Virus record (IMG/VR): IMGVR_UViG_3300049448_000154
Location: 1 to 21,578 of that record
Source of the DNA: a virus
Reading direction: 5' to 3' (one strand)
Length of the DNA stretch: 21,578 nucleotides
The notes beneath the pieces are model-generated. The model was not told where the DNA came from. It searched no databases and was given only the letters and a program-made list of their open reading frames with translations. Within the stretch, counting starts at the first letter, position 1. Each line of letters begins with the position of its first letter. This document shows positions 1 to 20,263 of the stretch, in pieces. Both the position numbers and the translations under genes were made by a program.

Positions 1-1
1 T

Positions 2-1975
2 GTCTGCGAGGGCCTACTGCAGCCGCAGCTCCAGATGTTATTGGCGCAGCCGGGCATCGAGGCGCAACGCATCGTCCGGCGCCCGATGACGGACGAAGAA
101 GTCTCCACCCTGCAAAAGACCCCCGATGGGGCGATGTATCTGCAGTCGGGTGGTGCTGCGGAAATGTGGAGCGCCACCATCACCCGCACCGCGCAGCAGA
201 ACTGGCCGGTGGTCGAGGCCGTGCCCGCCGAGTGCGTCTGGGTGGTGGCCGACGCCGATACCGTCGATGGCGCCCGCGGTATCTTCCACGTGCGCGATGT
301 ACCGGCCAGCGACCTGATCGAGATGGGTCTGCCCGAGGACAAGATCCTGGCCTACTGCGACACCATGATGCGGCCGCAGCAGCGCCGCGAGATGATCGCC
401 CGCAACCCCGCCCAGGGGCACAACATCAAGCCGTCGCCCCCAGGTGACCGCAGTATGGGCATCTGTCGCTACGCGGAAGGCTGGATACGCTGCGACACGG
501 ATAACGACCATAAAGCGGAACTCATCCACGTCCACATGCTGGGCAATGCCACCAGGATGATCCAGTGGGAGCGGGTGGATGAGATCCCGCTCGCTTGTTT
601 CACCCCCTACAGGGAGCCCGGGCGGCTGATCGGCTATTCGCAGGCCGACATGGTGATGGACCTGCAGCGGGTCGAGTCGCGGGTGATGCGGGCGACGCTC
701 GACAGCCTGGCGCAGAGCATGTTCCCGCGCACGGTCGTCACCTTGGGGCAAGTCAACCTCGCAGACGCCAGACAAACGGCCATCGGGTCGATCATCCGCA
801 CCACCCAGGCGGGCGCCGTCACCGAGCTGGTGAAGCCGTATACGGGTCAGGCGGCGCTTGAGATGATGCAAGCGCTGGAGGCCATCAGGGAGAGCAGGAC
901 AGGGATTACGCGAGCTTCGCAGGGGCTCACCGTGGATGAGCTGCAGAGCACGGCACCCGTGGCCGTGTCGGCGCAGACCAGCGCAGCTCAGGACCGGCTC
1001 GACATGATGGCGCGGACGTTGGCGGAAACCGGATTGGCGCCGCTCTACAGTGGGCTATTGCGCATGATGGCGCGGCATCAGGACCGGCCGAATGTGTACA
1101 GGATTAGAGGCCAATGGGTGCCGATCGATCCGCGTGCCCTCGGCGTGATGTGGCAGACCAGCGTCAACGTCGGCGGCAAGGGCATGCCGATGGAACGCCT
1201 GGCGATGCTCGCCCAGATCGCCGGCAAGCAAGAGATGATCATGCAGACGCAAGGGTTAACCAATCCCTTGGTCGGTGTGCCGGAATACCGGAACACGCTG
1301 TCGCGGATGCTGGAAACCGCCAACATTGCCGATGTGTCCTCGTACTTCAAAGCCCTGCCGCCCGGGTTCCAGGCGCCGCCGCCACCACCGACACCGCCCG
1401 ATCCGTCGCTGATCCTCGCCCAGGTGCAGGCCGGCAAGACCGCGGCCGATGTCGAGAACGATCGGGCATCCGAACAAACCAAACGCGCGCAGATGCTGAC
1501 CGATGATGATCTGAACAGGGACAAAGCTGCGCTCGATGCGTGGACCAAGACCTGGGTGGCCGGAGCGCAGTTCGGCACCCCTGTGCCGTCGCTCACCGAA
1601 TTCCAGCAGGCGATGGCCAGCAAGGCGCCCTCGGTCCAGCTGCTGGGCAATCTGCCGCCACCCACCAGCCCGCAGATGCCAGCCACGGCAGGCCCACCCC
1701 CAGGCCAGCCGGCACAGGGGCCGCCACGGCCTCCGCAGGCGCCAGCTGCCCCTGGGCCATCCATGGTGCCACCACACCCACAGCAGCCCATGGGGCCGCC
1801 CGTAGGCTCGACCAATCCGGCGCAGGCGATGGCCACCCGCCAGGCGCTCATGCAGGGCCAGATGCCAAGCGCCTATGGCAACATCGCCGCCAACGCCGCG
1901 GCGAAGTCGTTGTTCGGTCCCGGGGGGCCGCCATTGCCGCGGCCGGGCGGGCCACCACCACAACCAGGGCAGTAA
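2..1975 (+). CDS. Phage portal protein (5' partial)
   Basis: Portal (head-tail connector) protein: in this family a dodecameric ring at one capsid vertex through which DNA is packaged and ejected. The frame is open to the left edge, so the N-terminus is missing; the first ATG in view (35) is probably internal. About 657 residues are visible. Supporting segments are the basic stretch leading to IPLACFTPYREPGRLIGYS, the helical part MVMDLQRVESRVMRATLD, and the TGITRASQGLTVDELQSTAP motif typical of P22/SU10-type portals. From about base 1375 the C-terminus is proline-rich and low in complexity, as in related portals. Bases 1625-1656, encoding APSVQLLGNLP, resemble the spacer of the CRISPR unit at 2773-2862. 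Family assignment is by recognition of motifs, not a search. Confidence 0.9.
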   Translation, partial: VCEGLLQPQLQMLLAQPGIEAQRIVRRPMTDEEVSTLQKTPDGAMYLQSGGAAEMWSATITRTAQQNWPVVEAVPAECVWVVADADTVDGARGIFHVRDVPASDLIEMGLPEDKILAYCDTMMRPQQRREMIARNPAQGHNIKPSPPGDRSMGICRYAEGWIRCDTDNDHKAELIHVHMLGNATRMIQWERVDEIPLACFTPYREPGRLIGYSQADMVMDLQRVESRVMRATLDSLAQSMFPRTVVTLGQVNLADARQTAIGSIIRTTQAGAVTELVKPYTGQAALEMMQALEAIRESRTGITRASQGLTVDELQSTAPVAVSAQTSAAQDRLDMMARTLAETGLAPLYSGLLRMMARHQDRPNVYRIRGQWVPIDPRALGVMWQTSVNVGGKGMPMERLAMLAQIAGKQEMIMQTQGLTNPLVGVPEYRNTLSRMLETANIADVSSYFKALPPGFQAPPPPPTPPDPSLILAQVQAGKTAADVENDRASEQTKRAQMLTDDDLNRDKAALDAWTKTWVAGAQFGTPVPSLTEFQQAMASKAPSVQLLGNLPPPTSPQMPATAGPPPGQPAQGPPRPPQAPAAPGPSMVPPHPQQPMGPPVGSTNPAQAMATRQALMQGQMPSAYGNIAANAAAKSLFGPGGPPLPRPGGPPPQPGQ

Positions 1976-1982
1976 TTCCACG

Positions 1983-2012
1983 TTTCCAGGAACTTTCCAG
2001 GAACTTTCCAGG
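1983..2012. repeat. 11-bp tandem repeat after the portal gene
   Basis: TTTCCAGGAAC occurs at 1983-1993 and 1994-2004, followed by a partial third copy TTTCCAGG (2005-2012). Each unit contains the dyad TTCC-A-GGAA. The block lies in the 69-bp gap between the portal stop codon and the next start. It could be a small operator, an RNA element or slippage-generated repeats; nothing decides between these. Confidence 0.7.
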
Positions 2013-2044
2013 GCGAAATTCCTAATTCCACCAGGAGATCCACC

Positions 2045-2194
2045 ATGGTCACACGCGCATCCGGGAGCCAGAGCACGAAGACAGTGCCCAAGCAGGGCCA
2101 GAACAAGCCGGTGAGCGGCGGGGCGGCCGGGGCCGGCAAAGACCGCGGGGGCGCCAAGCTGCCCACCATCAGCAGAACCACAACCCGGAAGTGA
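2045..2194 (+). CDS. Small basic protein, 49 aa, unknown function
   Basis: Short frame from ATG 2045 to TGA 2192-2194, preceded by a strong ribosome-binding sequence (AGGAG at 2033-2037). The product starts MVTRASGSQSTKTV and is rich in Lys, Arg, Gly, Ser and Thr, with no hydrophobic core; it is probably disordered and may bind nucleic acid. It sits between the portal and another small gene, six bases before the next start. I recognise no family. The good Shine-Dalgarno sequence and tight spacing are the reasons to call it. Confidence 0.6.
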   Translation: MVTRASGSQSTKTVPKQGQNKPVSGGAAGAGKDRGGAKLPTISRTTTRK

Positions 2195-2200
2195 GCGGTA

Positions 2201-2506
2201 ATGCCAGCCAACGGGCTCCTCGGGCCAGTGTGGTCGGATAGCGGCGGAACGCCTGCGTCCGGCCCGATCCCGAGCGCAGATCCGGGCTGGTCGTTCGGTA
2301 ATTTCCAGCAGTTGCCGACAGCGCCGCCACAGCAGACCTACACCGGAGCGATCCCGACGCCCCGCGCTGATTATGCGGCCACCGCCTACGACCTGCCGCA
2401 CGATTACTATCAGATGCAGCAGATGATGAATGCGGCTGGGCCGGATAATCCATTGCTCAATAAGGTGCTCCAGCTGCTGTCCCTCCAGCACAGGACCCGG
2501 ACATGA
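2201..2506 (+). CDS. Hypothetical protein, 101 aa
   Basis: Starts MPANGLLGPVWSDSGG and is rich in Pro, Gly, Gln and Tyr in its first two thirds; the C-terminal third (about residues 65-101, including YQMQQMMNAAGPDNPLLNKV) is predicted helical. There is no obvious Shine-Dalgarno sequence, but the start lies 6 bases after the previous stop, so translational coupling is likely. Its end overlaps the next gene by ATGA (2503-2506). The position between portal and scaffold suggests a minor head or packaging role. No family recognised. Confidence 0.7.
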   Translation: MPANGLLGPVWSDSGGTPASGPIPSADPGWSFGNFQQLPTAPPQQTYTGAIPTPRADYAATAYDLPHDYYQMQQMMNAAGPDNPLLNKVLQLLSLQHRTRT

Positions 2507-2775
2507 GCGACCTCTCGCGCGAGGAACGCTACGAAATCCAGCGCCGCGGCGGCGAGGCGCACCGCCTGCTGCAGGATGCCGAACTGATGAGCATCCTCAC
2601 CTTTATCCGGGAAGGCGCGGTGCAGACCGCGGTGCATGGTGCCGATGTCCGTGAGCGTGAGGACGCAAGGCAGTTAGCCAGAGCCATCGACCACCTGGCC
2701 ACCGAGATGCGCTCACGCCTCGATACCGCCCTGCTGCAGAACCAGCGCGAGACTGATGGGCGGCGATTCGAGTAG
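2503..2775 (+). CDS. Hypothetical helical protein, 90 aa
   Basis: Begins MSDLSREERYEIQRRGG in an ATGA overlap with the upstream gene. Highly charged and almost entirely alpha-helical in composition, with a repeating heptad-like pattern around DARQLARAIDHLATEMRSRL (about residues 53-72), compatible with a short coiled coil. Its TAG stop (2773-2775) is also the first three bases of a CRISPR repeat on the opposite strand. Small helical proteins of this kind are common between portal and scaffold genes, but I do not recognise this one. Confidence 0.75.
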   Translation: MSDLSREERYEIQRRGGEAHRLLQDAELMSILTFIREGAVQTAVHGADVREREDARQLARAIDHLATEMRSRLDTALLQNQRETDGRRFE

Positions 2776-2862
2776 TTCATCCCCGCTGACGCAGGGAACA
2801 CGGTAGATTGCCGAGCAGTTGGATGCCGGGCGCCGGTTCAACCCCGCACGCGCGGGGAACGC
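2773..2862 (-). CRISPR. One-spacer type I-E-like CRISPR unit, minus orientation, no cas genes
   Basis: Two 29-bp repeats (2773-2801 and 2834-2862) enclose a 32-bp spacer (2802-2833), giving the 61-bp period of type I-E arrays. Read on the - strand, the first repeat (2834-2862) begins GCGTTCCCCGC and ends GCGGGGTTGAACCG; the second begins GTGTTCCCTGC and ends GCGGGGATGAACTA. Against the repeats at 4072 they match at 23/29 and 21/29. The 6-bp stem is kept in both (CCCCGC/GCGGGG and CCCTGC/GCGGGG, the latter with one G-U pair), as needed for Cas6e-type recognition. The most diverged repeat is at the trailer end for - strand reading. The spacer is homologous in frame to the phage's own portal gene. 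No convincing - strand promoter is visible to its right. Confidence 0.85.
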
Positions 2863-2898
2863 TCCACCCTACACACGCGAAACCCAAGATGGAACTCC

Positions 2899-4041
2899 AT
2901 GAGCGAGAATAGCGGCACATCCGCCCCGGCTGCCCCGGCAGCACCCGCAGCAGCCCAGCCGGCCACACCAGCGCCAGCCACGAACCAAAATGTCGTCAAC
3001 GCCCCCGCGCCAGCGTCGCAGGAAAGCATCAGCCTCTCCGATGCCGGCCGCCTGCTTGCCAGACGCCGCCAGGAGGCCGCACGCGAGGCGCAGGGGCAAC
3101 CCACAGCACGCCTCAACCCCGTGCAGCAGGGGCCCGGAGAGGCACGCGCCACGCCAGCCCCTGCACAACCGGCAGCGCAGCCAACCGAAGCGAAGGCCGC
3201 TCCCACCGACAGCTACGACACCATCGCCAAAGCGCTCGGGCTGCAGGAAGGGGCGCAGCCGGCCGCACCCGACGGGACGGCACCAGCCGCAGACGCGTCC
3301 GAGAGCGGCATCTACGAGATCGACGGCCACCGCGTCACCGCCGCTCAGATCCGCACCGCCATGGGCATGGCCGCGGACTACACCCGCAAGACCCAAGAGT
3401 TGGCTGCCCAACGCCAGCAACTCCAGCAGCAGGCCGAGGCACTCGCCACCGTGCTGCCCCACATCCAGCCGGAACTCGCTAAGCTGGGTGAGCGGCTCCA
3501 GGGAGCGACCCCGCCAGACCCCAGCCTGATCGAAAGCGACCCACAGGGCTATCTCCGCCAGTTCGCCGCCTACCAGCAGGCTACGGCTGAGCAACAACGT
3601 CTGGGCAGCCTCACCCAGCTCCAGCAGCAGGCGTTCGAGCGCGCCATGACCCAGCAGGTCGAGGCCGGCAACAAGATGCTCAGCGAGAAATACGAGTTCT
3701 GGCGGGATGATGCGCAGCGCACGACCGTCCAGCGCGATATCGCCCGCTGGGCCGAAAGCAAAGGCGGCTACACCCGCCAGGAACTCCAGGGGCTCTCCGA
3801 CCCGCGCCACGTCGAGTCGATGATGAAAGCGATGATGTTTGACAGATTGGTCGAGGGCGCCAAGACCCGCGCCCCCCAGCCGGTGCAGACCGCACAGGCG
3901 CGTGGCGTGCGCCCACCACCAGCCGCCGCCGCCCAGGTGCAACAGGCCGAACAGGCGTTCGAGGCACGCCCCAATGCCCGCAACGCCGCCGCCCTGCTCA
4001 GCGCCCGACGCTCCAATGCCAACGGCAGCACCCGGTATTGA
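2899..4041 (+). CDS. Putative phage scaffolding protein
   Basis: 380-residue protein immediately before the capsid gene, the normal place of the assembly scaffold. The first 110 residues or so are Ala/Pro-rich and disordered. Then come IYEIDGHRVTAAQIRTAMG and MAADYTRKTQELAAQRQQLQ (about residues 135-180), a pattern widespread in podovirus scaffold-like proteins, followed by long Gln-rich helices and coiled coil to about residue 310. The C-terminus is basic (ALLSARRSNANGSTRY), as expected for a tail that contacts the coat protein. GGA at 2891-2893 is a modest ribosome-binding site. The gene is flanked by two CRISPR loci in opposite orientation. Assignment rests on composition and position. Confidence 0.75.
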   Translation: MSENSGTSAPAAPAAPAAAQPATPAPATNQNVVNAPAPASQESISLSDAGRLLARRRQEAAREAQGQPTARLNPVQQGPGEARATPAPAQPAAQPTEAKAAPTDSYDTIAKALGLQEGAQPAAPDGTAPAADASESGIYEIDGHRVTAAQIRTAMGMAADYTRKTQELAAQRQQLQQQAEALATVLPHIQPELAKLGERLQGATPPDPSLIESDPQGYLRQFAAYQQATAEQQRLGSLTQLQQQAFERAMTQQVEAGNKMLSEKYEFWRDDAQRTTVQRDIARWAESKGGYTRQELQGLSDPRHVESMMKAMMFDRLVEGAKTRAPQPVQTAQARGVRPPPAAAAQVQQAEQAFEARPNARNAAALLSARRSNANGSTRY

Positions 4042-4065
4042 TCCATGAACCGGTTGGAGTATATA
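4038..4065 (+). promoter_or_regulatory. Candidate promoter abutting the CRISPR array
   Basis: TTGATC (4038-4043), 16 bp, then TATATA (4060-4065). Each hexamer matches the sigma-70 consensus at 4 of 6 positions. A start site 6-8 bases past the -10 box would fall at about 4072, the first base of the first repeat. The -35 box overlaps the scaffold stop codon. The alternative is that the array is simply read through from the structural operon. Confidence 0.35.
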
Positions 4066-4071
4066 CGAAGG

Positions 4072-4283
4072 GTGTTCCCCGCAGGCGCGGGGATGACCCG
4101 TGTGCATGGCCTGCACCATTGGCGCTGTCGTTGTGTTCCCCGCAGGCGCGGGGATGACCCGGGGAGTGCCGAGGCGAAGGTGTGCTGGATTGCGTGTTCC
4201 CCGCAGGCGCGGGGATGACCCGACCCGGGAGCAATGCGATGTTGAAGATCGCATCGCGTTCCCCGCCGTGCGGGGATGACCAA
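4072..4283 (+). CRISPR. Three-spacer type I-E-like CRISPR mini-array, plus orientation, no cas genes
   Basis: Three identical 29-bp repeats (4072-4100, 4133-4161, 4194-4222), each beginning GTGTTCCCCGC and ending GCGGGGATGACCCG, plus a degenerate 28-bp repeat (4256-4283) with one loop base deleted and an altered end. The stem CCCCGC/GCGGGG is intact in all four; the loop is AGGC, or CGT in the last. The spacers are unrelated to each other: 4101-4132 (32 bp), 4162-4193 (32 bp) and 4223-4255 (33 bp). Repeat form and 61-bp period are those of type I-E. The degenerate last repeat and the orientation both indicate reading on the + strand with the leader at left. Only about 30 bp separate it from the scaffold gene, so there is no normal leader. 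I see no match for these three spacers in the window. Confidence 0.95.
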
Positions 4284-4284
4284 G

Positions 4285-4321
4285 GGGCAGGCGCCAGCCC
4301 CGCAGGACTGGCGCCCTGCCC
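4285..4321 (+). other. Strong GC hairpin directly after the array
   Basis: GGGCAGGCGCCAG (4285-4297) pairs with CTGGCGCCCTGCCC (4308-4321) with one bulged base and a 10-base loop. It begins two bases after the last CRISPR repeat. There is no T-run after it, so it is not a typical intrinsic terminator; it may protect or bound the 3' end of the array transcript. Confidence 0.6.
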
Positions 4322-4676
4322 TACCGCCGACGTATGGTGATGATCTTGAGGAACTTGTGATGTCCTACCGTCACATTGCTCCCTTGGAGATGCCGGGCAG
4401 GCCATTCCTGTCCGGCGTTTCTCGTTTAGCCGCTTGACGACGCCGTATCCACACCCGTAGCGTGCCCCCGTCGCCCGAAGGAGTGCTTGCACCAACCGGT
4501 AGGGCGAGACGTGACGTCGCAGGACGACCAAGCCGGCTATCGGCACGCAGCGCAGTCGGGATACCGACCAAGCAGCTAAACGCCCGAGTAGCCTCCAGTC
4601 AGATCCATTGCGAACCAGCAATTTTGGTTCAACCGGCACCAGGCGCCCAGCGCCGTGCTAAGCAATGGAGTAGACC
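4322..4676. other. Untranslated region before the capsid gene
   Basis: About 355 bp with no convincing gene on either strand. It holds a terminator-like hairpin (4387-4421), a possible -35 box TTGACG (4434-4439) with only a poor -10 partner, a short dyad GAACCA/TGGTTC (4612-4617 and 4625-4630), and the capsid ribosome-binding site GGAG just before 4677. A 25-codon frame at 4360-4437, with AGG 8 bases upstream, runs through the hairpin and is not convincing. The length is unusual in an otherwise gapless operon. Confidence 0.6.
4387..4421 (+). terminator. Possible intrinsic terminator
   Basis: CCGGGCAGG (4393-4401) pairs with CCTGTCCGG (4407-4415) around a 5-base loop, with one G-U pair, and the stem can extend outward through weaker pairs. 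It is followed by a T-rich stretch (TTTCTCGTTT, 4418-4427). It could end the scaffold/CRISPR transcript before the capsid gene. The T-run is interrupted, so confidence is moderate. Confidence 0.4.
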
Positions 4677-5660
4677 ATGGCCGTTCCCGCACAGGGAGCC
4701 GCACCTGCAGGCACTTATATCGAGACAGCGGCTGTTGGTGTTCGCGAGGATCTTGCGGATATCATCTATCGCATCGATCCCGACGAGACACCGCTCGTGT
4801 CAAGTTGTTCCAGGGTCGGTTCCAAGCAAGTCCTGACCGAATGGATCGTGCAGGAACTCAACCCGGCCGCAGATAACGCCCAACCCGAGGGCTTTACCGC
4901 GGTCATGCAGGCGGTGATCAAGCCAGTAAGACTGAATAATGTCTGCCAGTTGCTGGCACGCACTGTCGGGGTATCGAATACGCTCCGCGTCGTGGACGTG
5001 GTCGGGGGGGAAGACGAGTATAACAGGAATATGATTTTGAGGGGCATGGAGGTTAAGCGCGACCTCGAACTGGCGGTAACGTCCCCGCTGGTGCGCACCA
5101 TCACCGACCCGAGGCATATGAGCGGCTTGCCCTGCTACACCAACTTCGGCGCACGCGGCGCCGGCGCCGGCGTCATGCCGATCGGTGACGGCTCCAACGC
5201 AGGCACCGCAGGCACCCCCTACGATCTCACCCTCGCCGTGGTGAACACCGCCGTGCAGCAATGCTGGCAGGCAGGGGGTAATCCGACATTGGCGATCATG
5301 TCGGGGAATATTAAGAATTACTTCGCGACATTGTCGCAGGGTGGGACCGGCAACCCAATCGTCGCCCAGAACATCGTCCAGGCGTCACCCACCGGCGAGA
5401 TGACCATCCAGGGCGCGGTCGACGTGTACCGCACTAACTTCGGGACGATACAGTTGGCGCCCGATCGCTTCATGCCAGCGCATCAAATCCTGCTTGTATC
5501 TACGGACTATGTCGAGATGGCACCGTTGCCAGAGCGCGATATGATCCAGCAGGATTATGCCCAAACTGGGGACAACTCACAGGGTGGTGTGGTTTTCGAA
5601 GGATGCATCCGGCCTACAGCGCCTAAGGCCCACGCGACGATCTTCGATCTTAATCAGTAG
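4677..5660 (+). CDS. Major capsid protein, DUF5309/SU10-like
   Basis: 327-residue coat protein that forms the icosahedral shell. The N-terminal segment TYIETAAVGVREDLADIIYR followed by IDPDETPLVSS is the recognisable start of the DUF5309 (SU10-type) major head proteins. Other family-like parts are the central EWIVQELNPAADNAQPEG loop, the helical NMILRGMEVKRDLELAV spine segment, and the C-terminal domain with PDRFMPAHQILLVSTDYVEM. Length is usual for the family. GGAG lies about 8 bases before ATG 4677, supporting this start. It follows the scaffold as in most tailed phages, but is separated from it by the CRISPR array and a long untranslated region. Confidence 0.9.
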   Translation: MAVPAQGAAPAGTYIETAAVGVREDLADIIYRIDPDETPLVSSCSRVGSKQVLTEWIVQELNPAADNAQPEGFTAVMQAVIKPVRLNNVCQLLARTVGVSNTLRVVDVVGGEDEYNRNMILRGMEVKRDLELAVTSPLVRTITDPRHMSGLPCYTNFGARGAGAGVMPIGDGSNAGTAGTPYDLTLAVVNTAVQQCWQAGGNPTLAIMSGNIKNYFATLSQGGTGNPIVAQNIVQASPTGEMTIQGAVDVYRTNFGTIQLAPDRFMPAHQILLVSTDYVEMAPLPERDMIQQDYAQTGDNSQGGVVFEGCIRPTAPKAHATIFDLNQ

Positions 5661-5675
5661 ATCGTAACAAACCTG

Positions 5676-5703
5676 TTGTCTAGGGGCTGAAATGGTGTAT
5701 AAC
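5676..5703 (+). promoter_or_regulatory. Candidate promoter of the HNH gene
   Basis: TTGTCT (5676-5681), 16 bp, TATAAC (5698-5703). The -10 box matches sigma-70 at 5 of 6 positions. The expected start site, about 5709-5711, coincides with the ATG at 5711, which has no Shine-Dalgarno sequence, so the transcript may be leaderless. Confidence 0.5.
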
Positions 5704-5710
5704 CTCTGGT

Positions 5711-6283
5711 ATGAGAAAAGGCATACCTTGGCAAGATCGCCTGGTCGAGAACCGGGAGACCGGTTGTTGGCTGTGGACTGGCGCAATCGGGGATTTTGGA
5801 TACGGACAGGTCACGATCCGCTACCGGCGCCACAGAGTGCATCGCCTGGCCTGGGAGGACGCCTACGGGCCAATCCCAGACGGGATGCAAGTCTGTCATC
5901 ACTGCGATGTGCCGGCCTGCTGCAACCCAAGGCATCTCTTCTTGGGCACCCAACAGGACAACATGCACGACGCCCTGAACAAGAGTCGCTTCAAGGGCAA
6001 CGCTCATCTCAACAAGCAGAAGACCCATTGCCCGAAGGGTCATCCGTACGACGAAGAGAACACGCTGATCGCCAACGGCAAGCGCCACTGCCGGGAGTGC
6101 ATGCGGATCTATGCTCGGGCCTACAAGGCAGCGCGCAAGACGCCCAAGCAGGAAAAGCAGCCGCAGACCCATTGCAAGCGTGGTCACGAGTTCACGCCAG
6201 AGAACACATACGTCCACAACGGAATACGCAACTGCAAGGAATGCCAGCGGCAGCGTGTGAGAGATCATCGCGCCAATCGGTAA
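5711..6283 (+). CDS. Free-standing HNH endonuclease with two zinc-finger repeats
   Basis: 190-residue DNA endonuclease of the HNH_3 type, probably a homing nuclease. The N-terminal half holds GCWLWTGAI (18-26), RVHRLAWE (42-49, conserved His44) and the core VCHHCDVPACCNPRHLFLGT (61-80), with His63/64, Asn72 and His75 as the metal and catalytic positions. The C-terminal half holds two copies of a C-x3-H-x15-C-x2-C unit (Cys107/His111/Cys127/Cys130 and Cys155/His159/Cys175/Cys178) spaced exactly 48 residues, probably zinc-binding and DNA-contacting. It sits as an insertion between the capsid gene and the next late gene with its own candidate promoter, as expected for a mobile gene. Confidence 0.9.
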   Translation: MRKGIPWQDRLVENRETGCWLWTGAIGDFGYGQVTIRYRRHRVHRLAWEDAYGPIPDGMQVCHHCDVPACCNPRHLFLGTQQDNMHDALNKSRFKGNAHLNKQKTHCPKGHPYDEENTLIANGKRHCRECMRIYARAYKAARKTPKQEKQPQTHCKRGHEFTPENTYVHNGIRNCKECQRQRVRDHRANR

Positions 6284-6299
6284 TTCTGGCGGTCAGCCG

Positions 6300-6623
6300 A
6301 TGACCGACAGACCGTTCTTTGAGTCCTGGAACCCGGTAACGCAGCGGTCAACCGAGATCGTGACCGATGCGGAAACCGGGCTTCCGGTCATCATCACCTC
6401 GCAGAACACGCGCCCCATTGTCGAGAGCGCCAAGCAACTGGCGTCCAACTTCGACAAACACCGGCCGAACCCTGACGGCATCACCCATGTCGCGCGCATC
6501 CCGATGGTGATCTGGCAGCAACTCCAGAAGCTCGGCATCACGAAAGACCAGAAAGCGCTCAACGCGTGGTTGGACGAGAGAGACAACCGCGTGTTCAGGA
6601 CCGACGACGGACGACGCATCTAA
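6300..6623 (+). CDS. Hypothetical virion-region protein, 107 aa
   Basis: Begins MTDRPFFESWNPVTQRSTEI. It contains a short beta-rich start, then a helical C-terminal half (PMVIWQQLQKLGITKDQKAL, about residues 69-88) ending in a charged tail. Starts 16 bases after the HNH stop; the upstream GGCGG is only a weak ribosome-binding site. Its place just after the capsid gene (ignoring the HNH insertion) suggests a head-completion role. I do not recognise a named family. Confidence 0.75.
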   Translation: MTDRPFFESWNPVTQRSTEIVTDAETGLPVIITSQNTRPIVESAKQLASNFDKHRPNPDGITHVARIPMVIWQQLQKLGITKDQKALNAWLDERDNRVFRTDDGRRI

Positions 6624-6634
6624 AGGAGACCGCC

Positions 6635-7003
6635 ATGGCCAGCCCAACGAAACACGACGCACCGCATGCTTCGCAGATGAAGCCCACACCCGGCGTCGGT
6701 GGCGCCCCAGCAACCGCAGGGAGCATGCAGCCGATGGCGGGGCACATCGCGCAGACGCCCGAGACCAAGGGCGCTGAGCCGGTCATGGTCGAGGGCATCG
6801 ACCCCGTGCTGCTGCATCGCCTCTATCCCGACGCTGACAGCGCCGAGGACGTGGCAGCCAAAGCGATGGCGCAGGGCCAGCAGACCTGGGAGCAGGGCGC
6901 CACGCTGGTTGCGGCGCAGCAGGAGCCGATCTGGATCGAGGGCGACCCCGCAGTGGCGCCCCAGGTGATGCCAGGGCAACCAGCGCCAAAGACCAAGCCA
7001 TGA
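6635..7003 (+). CDS. Hypothetical protein, 122 aa, paralogue of the next gene
   Basis: ATG 6635 is chosen because AAGGAG lies just before it; the frame is open further upstream without a better start. The N-terminal 45 residues are low complexity. The remainder (EPVMVEGIDPVLLHRLYPDA and the helical part to about residue 105) is clearly similar to the N-terminal part of the next protein (EPVLVEGIDQVLLIRLYPEA), so the two are tandem duplicates. Ends Pro/Lys-rich and overlaps the next start by ATGA (7000-7003). Function unknown; position suggests a minor head or neck component. Confidence 0.8.
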   Translation: MASPTKHDAPHASQMKPTPGVGGAPATAGSMQPMAGHIAQTPETKGAEPVMVEGIDPVLLHRLYPDADSAEDVAAKAMAQGQQTWEQGATLVAAQQEPIWIEGDPAVAPQVMPGQPAPKTKP

Positions 7004-7494
7004 GCGGCACCATTGAGCCGGTGCTGGTCGAGGGCATCGACCAGGTGCTGTTGATACGTTTGTATCCCGAGGCAGAGGCTCTCAGCGCTGCCGGCGATAT
7101 GGCGCTGGCACAGGGCGTGGAGACTGCGGCCGCCGGCGCGGTGCTGGAGGCCAGCCAATACGAGCCGGTGCTGGACATCGATGCGCCAGAGGGAGGCGGC
7201 CCCGATCCGGCACCCACCGCACCACCGGTCAACGTCGACGTGCCCGTCGTCTCGCAGAGCGGCGACACGCTCACCTGCACCATGGGCAACTGGGAGGGCA
7301 TGCAAGCAGAGCCGCACAGCTACGCCTATGCGTGGAGCCTGGACGGCACCTCCATCCCAGGTTCCGGGGCAACGCTGCCCGTCGTGGCAGCCGACGCCGG
7401 CTCGACGGCGACGTGCATCGTCACCGCCACCAATGCCATCGGCAGCACAGCAGCCCCACCCTCCAACGGCGTCGTCGTGGCCGCGCCGCCCTGA
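7000..7494 (+). CDS. Virion-region protein with C-terminal Ig-like domain, 164 aa
   Basis: Residues 1-60 repeat the module of the preceding protein. After a Pro-rich linker (about 60-80), residues 80-160 form a predicted beta-sandwich: GDTLTCTMGNW, YAYAWSLDGTSIPGSG and AGSTATCIVTATNAIGS are the strands, Trp and two Cys typical of bacterial/phage Ig-like or PKD-like domains. Such domains decorate capsids and tails and often bind surface carbohydrates weakly. Starts in an ATGA overlap; its TGA overlaps the next ATG (7492-7496). Domain call is from strand pattern; exact Ig class not resolved. Confidence 0.75.
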   Translation: MSGTIEPVLVEGIDQVLLIRLYPEAEALSAAGDMALAQGVETAAAGAVLEASQYEPVLDIDAPEGGGPDPAPTAPPVNVDVPVVSQSGDTLTCTMGNWEGMQAEPHSYAYAWSLDGTSIPGSGATLPVVAADAGSTATCIVTATNAIGSTAAPPSNGVVVAAPP

Positions 7495-8171
7495 TGGCAT
7501 CGCTCGCGCAACTCCAGGCCGACGTGGCCAGCTACCTCAACCGGCAGGACATCCTGACATCGGGTGTCATGCCGGGCTGGGTGGCCGCGGTCGAGACCGA
7601 GCTTGCCGAGACCCTGCGGGCGCGCTGCCAGGTAGCATCGGCCATCCAGCCGATCGATGCGCCCTACATCGCGCTGCCTTCCGACTTCGCCACCATGGAG
7701 TCTATCCGCGACAACACCACTGGTGAGCTGCTGACGCTGAAGGATGAATGGTCGGGACATTGGAACAACCAATATGCTCCGATAGGATGGCAGCCCTACG
7801 ACGCCATTACCGCGCTGAGCGGCCCCAGCGTCGCCTACAGGCTGGTGGCCAACTGCATCGAACTACTTCCTCATCCGGCCATTCCTAATCCCCCGGACCC
7901 GAACTGGCAGCCCCAGCAGATTTTAATGGGATGGTACAGGAAGCCCAGACCACTCCTCTTGCCGACCGATACCAACCCGATCCTGGAGAACCTCTATCCG
8001 GTCTATTTGTGGGGTGTTGTTAAGCAAGGCGCTATATGGGCGCTCGATGATGACCGCGTCACGCAGATGGACGGCCTCTGGCAACAGGCGATCACCAGGG
8101 CAAATTTGTGGAAGCAACAATCTGACTATTCTGGTGCTCCGCTTAGGTCCGAGCTTGCAACGGTATTCTGA
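7494..8171 (+). CDS. Head-tail adaptor protein (SU10/P22-type)
   Basis: 225 residues, starting MASLAQLQADVASYLNRQD in a TGATG overlap; the frame is open further upstream but this start is the coupled one. The pattern of an N-terminal helical segment, VETELAETLRARCQ, then IALPSDFATMESI and later MGWYRKPRPLL and YPVYLWGVVKQGAIWALDDD is typical of phage adaptor proteins that dock under the portal and join it to the nozzle. Order capsid-small genes-adaptor fits. Confidence 0.8.
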   Translation: MASLAQLQADVASYLNRQDILTSGVMPGWVAAVETELAETLRARCQVASAIQPIDAPYIALPSDFATMESIRDNTTGELLTLKDEWSGHWNNQYAPIGWQPYDAITALSGPSVAYRLVANCIELLPHPAIPNPPDPNWQPQQILMGWYRKPRPLLLPTDTNPILENLYPVYLWGVVKQGAIWALDDDRVTQMDGLWQQAITRANLWKQQSDYSGAPLRSELATVF

Positions 8172-8189
8172 GCATGTCAATGTCCATGT

Positions 8190-8669
8190 ATGAAAAAGCA
8201 AGCTCAGGACTATCAAGAATGGCTGGCCTATCAGCGCCAGTGGTTCAAGACACCTCGTGGTCGATACCACCAACACAAAGGCAAAGCCGGAGCGCGCGGG
8301 ATCGAATTCCTGCTGACGTTCGAGGAGTGGTGGGACATCTGGCAAGCCAGCGGCAAATGGGAGCAACGGGGGCGCCGCAACGATCAATATGTGATGGCGC
8401 GAGTTGGGGATCGCGGGGCCTATGAGCATGGCAATGTCAGGATCTGTCTTACCGGCGAGAACACTGACGAGATGCGTCAAGGGTTGCCGCCTCGTAGTCG
8501 GCAAAACCTCCAGGAACGGCGCGCGGCAGACAGAGAGTATAAGCAGCAGCAAAGACAGGGATTGCCGAAGAACCCTGCCAGATACGAGAAGGCATTTGGC
8601 CGTCGAATGGTTATCCGCGATGGTCAGCGGCGCTGGTCGCGTCCGGGTGATGCGGACTACCCCGACTGA
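8190..8669 (+). CDS. Possible homing nuclease-like protein, 159 aa
   Basis: Begins MKKQAQDYQEWLAYQRQWF in the same frame as the adaptor, 18 bases after its stop, with no good Shine-Dalgarno sequence. The core (about residues 41-92) includes LTFEEWWDIWQASGKW, GRRNDQYVMAR and GDRGAYEHGNVRICL followed by GEN. The D-x-G-x-Y-x3-N-V and later Asn pattern is reminiscent of the second half of HNH (His-Me finger) nucleases and recurs in stand-alone phage proteins. The C-terminus is very basic and Gln/Arg-rich. Codon use is visibly less GC-biased than its neighbours, which fits a mobile insertion. A canonical HNH histidine pair is not clear, so function is tentative. Confidence 0.55.
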   Translation: MKKQAQDYQEWLAYQRQWFKTPRGRYHQHKGKAGARGIEFLLTFEEWWDIWQASGKWEQRGRRNDQYVMARVGDRGAYEHGNVRICLTGENTDEMRQGLPPRSRQNLQERRAADREYKQQQRQGLPKNPARYEKAFGRRMVIRDGQRRWSRPGDADYPD

Positions 8670-8681
8670 GGCGACCTTCTG

Positions 8682-10076
8682 ATGGCAGTCCTGCAGCGCC
8701 TCGCCCTCCGCGGCACGCCCAAGGCCACCAAGCAGGCGGCGCGCTACACGCCTGCCGGCGGCGCCGAGCGCTGCGGCATGTGCCGACACTTCGCCCCCTC
8801 CAGTTCCTGCGCGCGTATCGAAGGGCCAGTGTCCGCCGCGGGTTGGTGCCAGCTGTATTCGCAGCAGGTCGCCTGGCGCCCGCGTGCCGGACAGCTCGCC
8901 GGACTCAACCCGGGGCTCGTTCCACCGGGCGTGACGCTCGACCTATCGTTCATGGCACCAGGCACGTTGCCCCCTAATGTCGTGTTCACTCGCGCATCCA
9001 CCGCCGCCTACTTTGATGCCACCGGCACGATGCAGACCGCAGCAGTCAACGCACCACGCTGGGACTATACCGGAGGCTCGCTGCGCGGGTTGCTGATCGA
9101 GGAAGCGCGCACCAACATTGTGCTCAATAGTGGTGATGCGAGCAACGCATCCTGGGTGAAATCCAATGGCGGTATAGGGTTGCCTGTCGCAACGGCTAAC
9201 CAGGCAGTCGCGCCAGATGGCACTACGACGGCTGCGCGGGTTAGTTTCCCTGCGGTATCCTCCGCAGGTGACTGGAGCCTGTTGAACCCGATCATATCCT
9301 TCACGGCAACAGTAGCGCCCTGGACGCTTTCTATGTGGCTGCGTGGAAACGTAGGCGGGGAGCGGGTGTATTTAAGTTTCACACCAGATGGTGTACTGTA
9401 TTACCGCACAACCTGCAATCTAACCACATCCTGGCAACGCTTTACGCTGTCCACACCGAACCTGACTGCGGCAACATGGTTCATAGAGGTTGGCACGGAT
9501 CGCCGCGACGCCTCACAACTGGCAACCAGCGCACAGACCACGTTCATCTGGGGAGGGCAGCTTGAGGCAGGCGCATTCCCCACCAGCTACATCCCGACGA
9601 CAGCAGCGAGTGTGACGCGGGCGGTTGAGGTGTGCTCGATCCCGACAGCGGCATGGTTCACCCCAAGCGTGGCATCGCTGTTCTACGAAATCATGCTACC
9701 TCTAGGCGGGGCTAATACGTTTGGCGGCTTCTGCGATACGAATTTCGGCAATGCGTTTTATATCGGATACGTGGGACCTGGCAGTGGTGTATCCGTGAAC
9801 CGAGCAAGCGGCTTAAGCGCGCCGCCAACCCAGGCACTCGTTCCCGGCATCAACAAGGTCTGCGGCGTGATCAGCGCAGCGGGCGTGGAAGCCTGTGCGA
9901 ACGGCGGCACAGTTCAGAAATCTTTGGGCGCAACGACAACACTTGCCACGTCTACCCGGCTGGCAATCGGCAATGATCCCTGGTCACTGACGACAGCAAT
10001 CAACACTTGGATCAGGCGGGTCCGTTACTGGCCTCGCGTGCTGTCTGACGCCGAGTTGCAGTCGGTGACAACGTGA
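8682..10076 (+). CDS. LamG-like tail fibre/receptor-binding protein with N-terminal HiPIP-type cysteine motif
   Basis: 464 residues. Residues 31-59 carry four Cys (31, 34, 43, 56) as C-x2-C-x8-C-x12-C ending GWCQLY, the signature of high-potential iron-sulfur proteins. From about residue 85 follows the common phage fibre module LDLSFMAPGTLPPNVVFTRA, then STAAYFDATGTMQTAAVNAP and RGLLIEEARTN, and a concanavalin/LamG-like beta-sandwich (about 180-460, e.g. WTLSMWLRGN and TWIRRVRYWPRVLSDAE). Such proteins are expected at the virion surface and bind host glycans. The start has little ribosome-binding sequence. The last codons overlap the next GTG start. Confidence 0.75.
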   Translation: MAVLQRLALRGTPKATKQAARYTPAGGAERCGMCRHFAPSSSCARIEGPVSAAGWCQLYSQQVAWRPRAGQLAGLNPGLVPPGVTLDLSFMAPGTLPPNVVFTRASTAAYFDATGTMQTAAVNAPRWDYTGGSLRGLLIEEARTNIVLNSGDASNASWVKSNGGIGLPVATANQAVAPDGTTTAARVSFPAVSSAGDWSLLNPIISFTATVAPWTLSMWLRGNVGGERVYLSFTPDGVLYYRTTCNLTTSWQRFTLSTPNLTAATWFIEVGTDRRDASQLATSAQTTFIWGGQLEAGAFPTSYIPTTAASVTRAVEVCSIPTAAWFTPSVASLFYEIMLPLGGANTFGGFCDTNFGNAFYIGYVGPGSGVSVNRASGLSAPPTQALVPGINKVCGVISAAGVEACANGGTVQKSLGATTTLATSTRLAIGNDPWSLTTAINTWIRRVRYWPRVLSDAELQSVTT

Positions 10077-10300
10077 CCGGCAGCGACATCGAGACATGGG
10101 TGCCGACGCAGATGTGTGAACCCGGCACATGGGCGCCCTTCCCGCTGCCGGACAGTGGCCTCGGCTCACCCTATGATGTGGGTCCATATGGCGCCGGCCC
10201 CTACGAGATGCTGGTTGCCACGTTCATCCCGATTGCGCTGTGCGGCAATCAGCCGGGGGACTGGGTGCCAGGCCCGTTCGATGTGGTGGCAGTATCATGA
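10073..10300 (+). CDS. Small hypothetical protein, 75 aa, GTG start
   Basis: GTG at 10073 overlaps the previous TGA (GTGA), and its own TGA overlaps the next ATG (10297-10300). Rich in Gly, Pro and aromatic residues (DSGLGSPYDVGPYGAGPYEM), with two Cys. No transmembrane segment is obvious. Sits between two fibre genes and may be a fibre-associated structural peptide. No family recognised. Confidence 0.65.
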   Translation: MTGSDIETWVPTQMCEPGTWAPFPLPDSGLGSPYDVGPYGAGPYEMLVATFIPIALCGNQPGDWVPGPFDVVAVS

Positions 10301-11463
10301 GCGGCAGCAGCGACTATACCCAGACGCCCAACCTGCTGCTCTATAAACCGATCTCCAACCGCGCGATCGGCACGTGGGGCGATCTGTGGAACTCCAACGC
10401 CGACAAGCTCGATACGGCATTAGGTACAGGCGCTGGCGGCGTGTTCCTGCCGATCACCGGCGGCACCATGACCGGCGCTGTGGCGCTGGCTGGCATCAGC
10501 ACCGCGCCCACCGCAGTCCCCGGCACCAACACGCTGCAACTGGCCAATACGGCATTCGTGGCGGCGCTGGTTGCGTCGCAGGGCGGCGTCACCTCGTTCA
10601 ACACCAGGGCCGGCGTGGTCACGCTCACCAGCGCCGATCTGACGGCTGCGGGCGGCGCACTTCTCGCCTCCGTCCCTCAACCGTCTTCGACCACACCCGT
10701 CATGGACGGCACCGCCGCGGTCGGAACCGGCACCACTTGGGCCCGCGCCGATCACGTCCATGCAAGCGATACCTCCCGGTATGCCGCATCCAATCCGAGC
10801 GGGTATCAGACCGCTGCACAGGTGTCCGCAACGGCTGCGACCTATCTGCCGCTGGCAGGCGGCAACCTGACGGGGAACCTGAGTGTGAACTCTGGTGTTG
10901 TGGCGGCATGGCAGTCTGGCGGTCAGGCCCCTACGTTTGCCTGTTGCAACAGCGGCGGCACGAGCACCGGCGGCATGGCGCAGGTTGGCGGTAACCTGAC
11001 CCTGTACGTCACCAGCGGAGGCGCAACGATAACGCTGGGAACCTCCAACAATATGGTGTTCAGCGGCGCAACTGCCTCTAAGCCTGGGGGTGGGGCGTGG
11101 GGCGATAGTTCGGATGCGAGAATAAAAGACGTGCTGGGCGACTATGCGGCCGGGTTGGCGGAAATCACGGCATTGCGGCCGGTGCGGTATCGCTACAAGG
11201 GCAACGATGCCGCGAGCAAGGAGGCCGTCTCGCCGCACGCCCTTGTGCTGGATCGCGATTTCGTCGGGCTGGTCGCGCAGGAAGCCGAAACCGTCATGCC
11301 GGAACTCGTCACGCAGGGCGACGGGTTCGTGGACGGGGCAGCGGTCAACGATCTGCGATCACTCGATGCGACGGCGCTGACATTCGCCCTGGTCAACGCG
11401 GTGCGGGAGCTTGCCGCCAGTGTGGCGGCTTTGGAAGCGACACCATCAACAGGAAAGGCGTGA
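10297..11463 (+). CDS. Tail fibre with C-terminal S74 intramolecular chaperone
   Basis: 388 residues from ATG 10297, chosen for the ATGA overlap. The N-terminus (TPNLLLYKPISNRAIGTWGD followed by LWNSNADKLDTAL) is the usual virion-binding start of phage fibres. The middle has FLPITGGTMTG and YLPLAGGNLTGNL collagen-like or triple-beta repeats. The C-terminal 120 residues are a Peptidase_S74 chaperone: SDARIKDV with Ser272 and Lys277 in the S-D-x-R-x-K catalytic pair, then LRPVRYRYKG and VGLVAQEAETVMPELV. In this family the domain helps the fibre trimerise and is cut off autocatalytically. Paralogous to the gene at 11793. Confidence 0.9.
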   Translation: MSGSSDYTQTPNLLLYKPISNRAIGTWGDLWNSNADKLDTALGTGAGGVFLPITGGTMTGAVALAGISTAPTAVPGTNTLQLANTAFVAALVASQGGVTSFNTRAGVVTLTSADLTAAGGALLASVPQPSSTTPVMDGTAAVGTGTTWARADHVHASDTSRYAASNPSGYQTAAQVSATAATYLPLAGGNLTGNLSVNSGVVAAWQSGGQAPTFACCNSGGTSTGGMAQVGGNLTLYVTSGGATITLGTSNNMVFSGATASKPGGGAWGDSSDARIKDVLGDYAAGLAEITALRPVRYRYKGNDAASKEAVSPHALVLDRDFVGLVAQEAETVMPELVTQGDGFVDGAAVNDLRSLDATALTFALVNAVRELAASVAALEATPSTGKA

Positions 11464-11466
11464 TCC

Positions 11467-11790
11467 ATGGCCACGTTCGCCGGATCGATGTCCAACACCG
11501 CGCAGCCCAACCCGCAGTGGGTGGCATGCAGCGGCCAGCCGCTCTACGTGCTCGACGCCAAGCAGCCCGTGCGCACCAAGGGCGTGCTGAGTGAAGGCAA
11601 CCGCCAGGATTATCTGCGCCAGGTCGGATGGCAGGGGCGTCGCCGCGGCCTCGGCCCCCTTGGCTGGCTGATCCTGATGCCATTTGATGCAGGCGCCACC
11701 TACAAGATCTCCACCGCCGACGATCCCGTCGAGACAGCACTGACGCCGCCGATCCCGTGGCCAGGCAAGCCGCCAGCGGGGATCAAGTAG
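11467..11790 (+). CDS. Hypothetical protein between two fibre genes, 107 aa
   Basis: Begins MATFAGSMSNTAQPNPQWVA three bases after the preceding stop; a GGAAAGG sequence lies upstream. Contains a compact mixed segment (QPLYVLDAKQPVRTKGVL, about residues 24-41), a basic Arg/Gly patch (QVGWQGRRRGLGPLGWLI) and a Pro-rich C-terminus. No signal peptide and no family that I recognise. Ends two bases before the second S74 fibre, so it is probably a co-translated fibre accessory or assembly factor by position only. Confidence 0.7.
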   Translation: MATFAGSMSNTAQPNPQWVACSGQPLYVLDAKQPVRTKGVLSEGNRQDYLRQVGWQGRRRGLGPLGWLILMPFDAGATYKISTADDPVETALTPPIPWPGKPPAGIK

Positions 11791-11792
11791 CG

Positions 11793-12857
11793 ATGAGCGA
11801 CACCACCACCCCGAACTATGGTTTCGATTTACCAACAGTTGGCGCCTCGCAAGACACCTGGGGTGGCAAGCTCAACGCCAACTTTGTCCTGGCCGACAGT
11901 GCGATCCATGGGCTGGCGTCCGGCTATCTGCCGATCAGCGGTGGCGGCACGATCAACGGCAATCTGGCCATCGCGCCAACGAGCGGTTACGCGAGCCTGG
12001 CGCTGAGCAAGCCGACCGGCGCGAACGGCAACCAGATCGAGGGCGCCACGGCCGGCAGGCCGCGCTGGGCCTTGTTACTGGGAGACGCGACAGCCGAAAG
12101 CGGCGGCAATGCCGGCTCGAACTTCTCGATCAATCGGTTCGATGACAGCGGCAGCTACCTCGGCACGCCCCTCAGTATCAACCGCGCCAATGGTAACGTC
12201 AGCATCCAGCAGAGCTTGTTTGTCAATGGTGGGGTGTACGCGGCTGGCGGCCGCATCATGTCAACCGGTGCAGGCAACAACCCAAGCGTCGCGGTCTACA
12301 ACACCAGCGTCAATTGGGCCGGCGGCTGGTGGGTTGGAGCGGCCGGCGCCCTGCAGTTCGGCACCGTCGATGCTGGTGGCAGCCCAAATAACCCGTATGG
12401 CTACCTTTCCAACACCTCGTTGGGGTTCGCGGCTGGCACTGTCTCGATCGAAGTCAACACCGGTGCGAACAGCCTGTGCTATGGCAGCGGAACCGACTTC
12501 AACGTGCCAGGGCAGGCGTGGAAGCCTGGCGGTGGCCCGTGGGCCGCGCTGTCCGATGATCGGGTCAAACGCAATGTGCGGCCCTACAGCGCGGGGCTTG
12601 CCGACATCTGCGAGCTGGCCCCCATCCGCTTTGAATACAACGGCGATGGCGGCTCCGCTGACGACGGGGTGACGCGCTACGGCCTCTCGGCACAGGCCAC
12701 GCAGCCAGTCATGCCTGAGTTGGTGCATGAGATGCCGGTGAGCCAACACTCGCTGCCGGGACAACTCGCGACCGATCTCGGGCCACTCACATTGGCGCTC
12801 GTTAATGCGGTGCGTGAACTCGCAGAGCGCGTGGCGTCCCTGGAGCTGCAGGGCTGA
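11793..12857 (+). CDS. Second tail fibre with C-terminal S74 intramolecular chaperone
   Basis: 354 residues. The N-terminus TTTPNYGFDLPTVGASQDTW followed by GGKLNANFVLAD is the same virion-attachment pattern as in the fibre at 10297, and the C-terminus carries ALSDDRVKRNV with Ser254 and Lys259 as the S74 pair, then LAPIRFEYNG and GLSAQATQPVMPELV. The middle is beta-rich and unlike the first fibre. The C-terminal helices LTLALVNAVRELAERVASLE match LTFALVNAVRELAASVAALE of the first fibre almost residue for residue, showing duplication. ATG 11793 lies two bases after the previous stop. Its TGA overlaps the next ATG. Confidence 0.9.
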   Translation: MSDTTTPNYGFDLPTVGASQDTWGGKLNANFVLADSAIHGLASGYLPISGGGTINGNLAIAPTSGYASLALSKPTGANGNQIEGATAGRPRWALLLGDATAESGGNAGSNFSINRFDDSGSYLGTPLSINRANGNVSIQQSLFVNGGVYAAGGRIMSTGAGNNPSVAVYNTSVNWAGGWWVGAAGALQFGTVDAGGSPNNPYGYLSNTSLGFAAGTVSIEVNTGANSLCYGSGTDFNVPGQAWKPGGGPWAALSDDRVKRNVRPYSAGLADICELAPIRFEYNGDGGSADDGVTRYGLSAQATQPVMPELVHEMPVSQHSLPGQLATDLGPLTLALVNAVRELAERVASLELQG

Positions 12858-12997
12858 TGGGCCGTATCTACAGTAGAGACTGGCACGATCATGTTATTCC
12901 GGTTCCATGGGCTCGTGCTTACTATCTAGCAAACAAGGAGGCATACGCAGAACGAGCACGCAAGCATCGTGAGAAAAAGCGGGGTGCGCGGCAATGA
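12857..12997 (+). CDS. Small basic protein, 46 aa
   Basis: ATG 12857 overlaps the fibre stop (TGATG), and its TGA (12995-12997) overlaps the nozzle start (ATGA), so it fills the gap exactly. Begins MGRIYSRDWHDHVIPVPWAR; the second half (AYYLANKEAYAERARKHREK) is a highly charged helix. The tail resembles basic helices seen at the ends of small phage DNA-binding or HNH-related proteins, but no catalytic residues are present. Codon use is more AT-rich than its neighbours. Real translation is likely from the double overlap; function unknown. Confidence 0.6.
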   Translation: MGRIYSRDWHDHVIPVPWARAYYLANKEAYAERARKHREKKRGARQ

Positions 12998-14592: not shown

Positions 14593-14813
14593 TGGTCGCG
14601 CATCTCCGTCATCCCGCAGCGCCGTTCGTTGCCCCGCTCTCGGGCGACATCAACCAGCGGCTGGCGCAAGTCGCGGACGCACTCAACCGCAAGGCTGACG
14701 CCAATGGCGCGACGGTGTTTCCCTATATCGGGCTGACCTCGCCAAATGGGACGACATGGAAGGTATCGATCGATGATACCGGGGCGCTTCATTTCGACGC
14801 GGTGCCGCGATGA
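14592..14813 (+). CDS. Small hypothetical protein, 73 aa
   Basis: Overlaps the nozzle stop by TGATG and the next gene by ATGA (14810-14813). Begins MVAHLRHPAAPFVAPLSGDI; residues 20-40 are a short amphipathic helix (NQRLAQVADALNRKADANGA) and the C-terminus is a beta hairpin-like stretch (TWKVSIDDTGALHFDAV) similar to the small repeat found at the ends of phage fibre/neck proteins. Function unknown, probably structural. Confidence 0.7.
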   Translation: MVAHLRHPAAPFVAPLSGDINQRLAQVADALNRKADANGATVFPYIGLTSPNGTTWKVSIDDTGALHFDAVPR

Positions 14814-15178
14814 GTTTGAGCGGGGGCGAGAAGGCACACAGGCTGCAGCAGGCGCTGGAGTATGGCGGCCCGACCCACAGGCTCGATGACGTGGTGCGGA
14901 TGCTGAAGGCAGGACAGGCGCAACTTTGGGAGAATGAAGGCGCGGTGATCGTTACCGAGATCAACGATTACCCGCTGCGGAAAGCTATCCACTATTGGCT
15001 ATTGGCCGGCGAGTTGCGCGATGTCCTGGCGCTTGAGCACGAAATCAACCCATGGGCGGTGGAGAATGGCTGCACCGTAGCGACGGCATGTGGCCGGCGT
15101 GGCTGGGGCCGCGTCGCTGCCCCTACGGGCTGGAGGCCGTGGCTGCCTAACTTCTACAAGGATTTGCGCCATGGGTAG
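14810..15178 (+). CDS. GNAT-like phage protein, 122 aa
   Basis: The pattern LKAGQAQLWENEGAVIVTEI then NDYPLRKAIHYWLLAGELRD and ENGCTVATACGRRGWGRV, ending in LPNFYKDL, is one I associate with small acetyltransferase-like (GNAT-fold) proteins encoded among podovirus tail and internal-virion genes. The GRRGWGRV segment lies where the acetyl-CoA-binding turn is expected. Whether it is an enzyme is unclear; such proteins may be structural. ATGA overlap with the previous gene; its TAG lies inside the start of the next gene. Confidence 0.6.
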   Translation: MSLSGGEKAHRLQQALEYGGPTHRLDDVVRMLKAGQAQLWENEGAVIVTEINDYPLRKAIHYWLLAGELRDVLALEHEINPWAVENGCTVATACGRRGWGRVAAPTGWRPWLPNFYKDLRHG

Positions 15179-18017: not shown

Positions 18018-18019
18018 CC

Positions 18020-20260: not shown

Positions 20261-20263
20261 GAG

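Follow-up and report, generated by a model that had tools for sequence, protein, structure and literature searches.

A one-spacer mini-CRISPR unit of a tailed phage that probably targets sister phages, and its place among putative cassettes of guide and resistant allele

Mini-CRISPR arrays carried by viruses have been described in the Saccharolobus portogloboviruses SPV1 and SPV2 (Medvedeva 2019, PMC6858448), and the available part of that work reports, for archaeal viruses, mutual targeting, mutated loci in the carriers themselves and a closeness of array and target that it calls unclear. Phages carry leaderless mini-arrays as well, some of which are directed at neighbouring genes in relatives while sparing the carrier, according to a 2019 survey (Faure 2019) as rendered in the available parts of PMC6858448, PMC7099407 and PMC11656645. 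The bacterial tailed phage described here has two arrays of this kind, with one (array A) and three (array B) spacers between repeats in a virus genome, within the range of one or two to three spacers typical of virus-borne mini-arrays. As in those, cas genes appear to be absent from the virus: 48 ORFs of a longer, nearly identical record (G001) gave matches to 23 Pfam families, none of them Cas, the record analysed here being a genome fragment, and the PADLOC listing used for cas genes comprised 25 of 59 families. Likewise, the spacers match related viruses and not the carrier, the exact target of the array A spacer not having been found.

The record is an IMG/VR virus record of 21,578 bases, analysed over its whole length (hereafter the window). 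G001 (40,309 bases) represents an almost identical phage, with 99.99% identity over positions 6589-21578 of the window and 99.07% over 1-6644, and its arrays A and B are identical. The first 691 bases of the window hold 61 of the 62 differences from G001, the remainder being nearly identical; this clustering points either to a recent recombination event within the portal gene or to a mixed assembly. A search of the portal region against a collection of named phages gave no match, nor did Rfam at gathering scores. The capsid gene is adjoined by a homing-type HNH endonuclease gene (HNH_3, phrog_826; 5711-6283), a niche of the same kind as that of the arrays, and a methyltransferase gene followed by a PAPS-reductase-like gene occupies 16256-17634. 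Array A is antisense to its neighbour genes; its parts and surroundings are as follows.

2-1975, plus strand: portal gene (Pfam SU10_portal), its 5' part cut by the window start
1622-1624, plus strand: AAG, PAM-like triplet retained at the phage's own portal site
1625-1656, plus strand: counterpart of the protospacer in the phage's own portal, 25/32, with positions 7-10 mismatched (two of these in the seed)
2503-2775: small ORF, one flank of array A
2773-2862, minus strand: array A, whole, type I-E-like, with a single spacer
2773-2801, minus strand: terminal repeat of array A, 29 nt, hairpin retained, degenerate tail (ATGAACTA)
2802-2833, minus strand: sole spacer of array A (spacer A), 32 nt, homologous to the portal gene
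2834-2862, minus strand: proximal repeat of array A, 29 nt, hairpin and intact 8-nt handle TTGAACCG
2899-4041: scaffolding gene, other flank of array A
4677-5660, plus strand: major capsid protein gene (Pfam SU10_MCP)

The original prediction, made from the window alone, rested on the homology of spacer A to the phage's own portal gene, and this homology was confirmed. The spacer aligns without gaps to 1625-1656 (plus strand) at 25/32 bases, with mismatches at its positions 7, 8, 9, 10, 15, 21 and 30; in the portal frame it encodes APGIQLLGNLP against APSVQLLGNLP in the own portal, those at 15, 21 and 30 are synonymous in that frame, and AAG (1622-1624) precedes the site on the correct side. 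The mismatch block at 7-10 falls in two codons and replaces G by S and I by V. Elsewhere in the window, spacer A reaches at most 19/32 among the matches listed. None of 1000 dinucleotide shuffles of the spacer attained 25 (maximum 24), and among 1000 real 32-mers sampled from the window 4 attained at least 25 somewhere in it, frame, PAM and gene being ignored. A chance or self-targeting match was rejected on the grounds of the shuffles, the frame, the PAM and the relatives. The idea that the phage's own portal site is strongly diverged was also considered and rejected, its divergence being only mildly above that of other 32-bp stretches of the portal: the fraction of windows at least as diverged was 0.017-0.371 over 22 relatives and fell below 0.05 in 4 of them.

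We put at roughly 78% the probability that array A is a one-spacer mini-CRISPR unit against closely related phages, which would borrow a type I-E system of the host and would belong to a class of cassettes carrying a resistant allele. Once the array is transcribed, host Cas6e would excise its crRNA, and this would guide Cascade-Cas3 to cut the portal gene of a sister phage infecting the same cell. The carrier itself would escape through the changes that its portal has in and beside the seed, at positions 7-10. Members of the class would combine a guide with a diverged, poorly targetable allele of the targeted gene within about 0.06-1.2 kb.

That spacer A targets the portal of a competitor, as the original prediction had proposed, was examined with 65 related-portal loci taken from IMG/VR, in which the portal alignment spans the spacer A site in 55 other contigs. 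The site matches the spacer better than the carrier's own in 28 of them (26-29/32 against 25), so that related portals do not all differ from the spacer more than the own portal does; one contig ties and 26 match worse (14-23). The 29 better or tied contigs are exactly those with the closest portals, 87.9-98.3% identical to that of the window, and the portals of the 26 others are at most 83.8% identical. Among these close relatives, the triplet 5' of the site is AAG or AGG in 26 and AAA, AAA and AGA in the rest, and the encoded peptide is VPG(I/V)QLLGNLP, once GPGIQLLGDLP, APSVQLLGNLP being found in the window phage alone. At spacer positions 7-10 it is the phage's own portal site that deviates from the others. 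The first six bases of the spacer, by contrast, are shared within this set only with the carrier's portal, and position 2, in the seed, is mismatched in 29/29 close relatives, which makes the potency of spacer A against them uncertain. The near-perfect portal match expected from databases did not turn up: a degenerate pattern fixing position 2 returned array A itself as its sole match in IMG/VR, the phage collection gave only a 21-base partial match and plasmids only weak partial matches, with no full-identity plasmid locus that would point to another target. The competitor proposal is thus upheld insofar as close relatives match better and sisters carry analogous arrays, and falls short in that the exact victim is absent and every close relative mismatches position 2. 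The likeliest source of spacer A is an unsampled close sister with APGIQ, positions 7-10 of the carrier having changed afterwards.

Array B, beyond the scaffolding gene, has one spacer with an exact target.

4072-4283, plus strand: array B, whole, three spacers, three 29-nt repeats of identical sequence and a degenerate last repeat
4072-4100, plus strand: repeat 1
4101-4132, plus strand: spacer 1, 32/32 in G018 (36202, minus strand), ATG PAM
4133-4161, plus strand: repeat 2
4162-4193, plus strand: spacer 2, no target among the contigs searched
4194-4222, plus strand: repeat 3
4223-4255, plus strand: spacer 3, 33 nt
4256-4283, plus strand: terminal repeat, degenerate, 3-nt loop
4665-4667: ATG PAM of the capsid-start protospacer
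4668-4699, plus strand: protospacer at the start of the window phage's capsid gene, 32/32 to a spacer of G018 and G010

The window phage and G018 (G010 is the same phage as G018) target each other, with 32/32 identity and an ATG PAM in both directions, and the capsid-start target of the G018 spacer is likewise 32/32 with ATG in G007, L008 and L012. Spacer 1 of array B and spacer 1 of G018 are directed at distant genes. In three relatives, spacer 3 of array B matches sequence immediately upstream of the capsid gene at 27-28/32 with no canonical PAM in register. It opens with a copy of the repeat end (ACCCG), after which the relatives' match begins, with AAG in a shifted register; this guide looks as if damaged.

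Such arrays are widespread in the phage group. A hairpin-aware scan of 76 contigs, from whose later counts one false array (G020) was removed by hand, yielded 37 spacer instances, 27 of them distinct, in 19 contigs, with up to five array sites per genome (G039); 24 of the approximately 27 distinct spacers lie outside the finding of the original prediction. The type I-E PAM set, from work on E. coli, comprises AAG, ATG, AGG and GAG. For thirteen distinct spacers the best target outside the carrier reaches 26/32 or more, and one of these four triplets accompanies a top-scoring outside site in 10 of the 13 (background 0.055, binomial 6e-11), tied top sites being scored positive if any one fits; the remaining spacers have no target among the contigs searched. 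Examples of close matches are those of G018 spacer 1 in G008 and G019 (31/32, AAG), of a G049 spacer in G004 (31/32, ATG), of the spacer common to G038 and G042 in L089 (31/32, ATG), of that common to L006 and L089 in G012 (30/32, ATG) and of a G048 spacer in L089 (28/32, ATG). The array A locus and its proximal repeat are common to G014 and the window phage, and the spacers are different.

Several other arrangements were observed in the group. Different spacers in G018 (10425), L006 (2303) and G049 (8080) lie beside, and are directed against, the same small gene, at two target places; its peptide in G004 is MKHVVSVPWTDEERALLRQMWENGLGPVLIGR. At 25825-25918 of G039, the terminal repeat is followed by a stretch with 30/31 identity to the spacer, and so abuts a copy of its own target and occupies the PAM position. 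A different unit stands at the array A locus in L003 (10030-10170) and in G002, G035, L005, L217 and G033, consisting of two inverted 10-bp arms and a ATTGAAGC-ended flank around a variable stretch of 36-38 nt, which resembles (27-31 of 36-38) the end of the adjacent ORF or the start of the scaffold gene in other relatives. It is possibly a guide unit of another CRISPR subtype; its RNA folds no better than shuffles. No portal was detected in 13 records that carry arrays, and G037-G041 and G047-G051 may have other or more distant portal lineages, or portals missed at first look.

The local arrangement of array A, in which the carrier holds a diverged copy of the target nearby, recurs in many other arrays of the group. 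For 9 of 25 spacers, the closest match within the carrier's own genome scores 23/32 or higher at a distance of 61-1177 bases from the array, whereas composition-preserving shuffles gave 0.02 such spacers on average and never more than 1 over 200 replicates, duplicate carriers and the short contigs L006 and L089 being left out of this test; the pattern is absent in the other 16. In most cases the own copies are in-frame homologues. Such units of sister phages, beside an altered copy of the targeted gene, look like a natural weapon-plus-immunity cassette for competition between phages, in which the closeness of guide and resistant allele would tend to make recombination move weapon and immunity jointly, a linkage that may itself be selected.

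One island holds both parts. L006 and L089 have mostly unalignable flanks, yet share about 0.25 kb at 97-98% identity, which contains an array and the altered tail of the adjacent gene. Compared with the target in G012, 21 of 24 codons of this tail are changed (18 synonymous sense changes, one stop swap and two amino-acid changes) and the C-terminal peptide is the same, at a G+C of 0.42 against 0.64 in G012; the tail looks like a recoded, uncuttable allele abutting its guide. G038 and G042 have a second array in common, within an island of 92-100% identity over about 0.8 kb, outside which identity falls to about 80% on one flank; this island yielded no altered own site, and L018 and G014 gave no clear island. 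AT-rich recoding as a general rule was rejected, as it occurs only in L006 and L089 among 11 own sites. Islands of this sort raise the possibility, which we regard as rather doubtful, that the cassettes are natural cleave-and-rescue elements, i.e. crRNA units linked to a recoded, uncuttable allele of the very gene that they cut. Host Cascade-Cas3 would then damage the sensitive allele of a rival in mixed infections and recombination, for which G001 has a RecT gene (Pfam), would swap in the resistant allele together with the array, so that the cassette could spread through the phage community in the manner of a homing element, at several loci and possibly with more than one CRISPR subtype.

The state of the own sites bears on both the mini-CRISPR reading and a regulatory one. 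A site was called protected if its PAM is lost or if two or more mismatches fall within seed positions 1-5, 7 and 8. By this definition, 10 of 10 own syntenic sites are protected against 30 of 74 distinct sites in other phages (p = 3e-4), or 12 of 14 when four own sites of G039 are added (p = 2.7e-3); sites were admitted by similarity (24/32 for other phages, 20/32 for own), spacers with no recognisable own site were left out, and own rows at non-syntenic chance matches (G014, G018-10425) were replaced by the syntenic sites before counting. CreR-type guides should keep PAM and seed at the own site and lose distal pairing. We think it quite improbable that the units are guides of this kind, whose partial pairing to the carrier's adjacent gene would let Cascade bind and tune that gene with no cutting. 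Degenerate repeats, a single spacer and a partial match to an adjacent own gene would suit such guides, and the G039 own sites at 27625 (AGG) and 30166 (ATG), unprotected by our definition, do keep the PAM and nearly all of the seed. Apart from these two exceptions, however, most own sites reverse the expected pattern, such as that of the G018 capsid, which has four seed mismatches and a perfect distal part, and those of G047 and G049, with ATC where the PAM is expected; several relatives, moreover, are matched at 30-32/32.

The repeats themselves are those of a type I-E system, of about 29 nt with the I-E hairpin and separated by spacers of about 32 nt. The hairpin is retained in proximal (27) as well as terminal (21) repeats and the handle only in the proximal ones, a pattern required by a crRNA made of handle, spacer and 3' hairpin. 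Conservation of the last six repeat bases is 0.93-1.00 in proximal repeats, except at one A/C position, and 0.19-0.71 in the degenerate terminal ones. That of the handle arises partly by selection, because the array search demanded an intact handle in the first repeat and the detector scored against a consensus handle, so that both favour intact handles; among arrays found by the terminal hairpin alone, the proximal handle is kept in 4/4. No sigma-70-like promoter was found on either strand of 2500-4700, and no leader was seen. Repeats of the array B pattern adjoin Cas5e, Cas6e, Cas1e and Cas2e in Jhaorihella thermophila and Rubellimicrobium thermophilum, and Cas7e in one of them. The precise sequence of the array B repeat was not found among the genome contigs searched, and a relaxed pattern matched 10 stretches in unrelated bacteria; we therefore claim no host, including these two species.

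Degenerate terminal repeats, the lack of a visible leader or promoter and the best match of array B spacer 3 being out of PAM register could also indicate non-functional relics, either fragments of host arrays or local duplicates picked up through recombination and now drifting. We give this no more credence than the regulatory reading, since hairpins persist in both repeat classes and variation is found in the loops and the unused tail, the arrays recovered by terminal hairpin alone all keep the proximal handle, perfect 32/32 targets exist and different spacers occupy the same locus. Least probable of all is that the repeats are RNA anti-CRISPRs (Racrs, described in phages according to the available part of PMC10651486), acting as decoys for host Cas proteins with incidental spacer content, for although the units are phage-borne, no Cas family was found and near-solitary repeat units occur (L018 2549), array A is not a solitary repeat but two repeats around a 32-nt spacer, the group's spacers have real targets, and neither a fixed spacer length and in-frame homology to adjacent genes nor canonical PAMs in 10/13 and reciprocal perfect targets are expected of decoys, even if one transcript could serve both roles.

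The preferred reading, a mini-CRISPR unit aimed at sister phages, can be set against the closest known systems. Compared with what the available part of the description of SPV1 and SPV2 contains, the arrays reported here occur in bacterial tailed phages with a portal and capsid of the SU10 kind, have type I-E repeats that vary from array to array, show no leader and mostly hold one spacer, reach five array sites in one genome (G039) and include an island with what looks like a recoded allele. They resemble the arrays of the Faure survey, as its citing papers present them, in being leaderless phage mini-arrays directed in some cases against adjacent genes of close relatives, with the carrier spared; unlike those, whose repeats are described as identical to the host's, they show strong drift of loop and tail. 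Similarly to free-standing phage homing endonucleases and marker exclusion, a small intergenic element would attack the locus of a rival from beside a resistant own site, but by means of a guide RNA and a borrowed host nuclease instead of an encoded one, and its copying into the rival is hypothetical. With engineered cleave-and-rescue or home-and-rescue drives they share a putative cutter linked to what looks like a recoded, uncuttable copy of its target (L006 and L089), and differ from them in being natural and phage-borne, with a putative drive behaviour.

Among the matches listed from the mini-array, homing, gene-drive, lytic-phage and type I-E literature, the parts available contain no description of an array and a resistant allele as one mobile cassette. 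What is added to the known mini-arrays is the linked protective allele, the Faure 2019 survey entering this comparison through the citing papers. The phage group further supplies many independent cases in one community and a quantified closeness of array and target, and the closeness left unexplained so far receives a concrete reason, namely that weapon and resistant allele would travel jointly. If this is true, local sequence oddities in phage structural genes may record CRISPR conflict among phages and not only with their hosts, and cassettes of a guide and a recoded allele would have evolved in phages before engineers built them.
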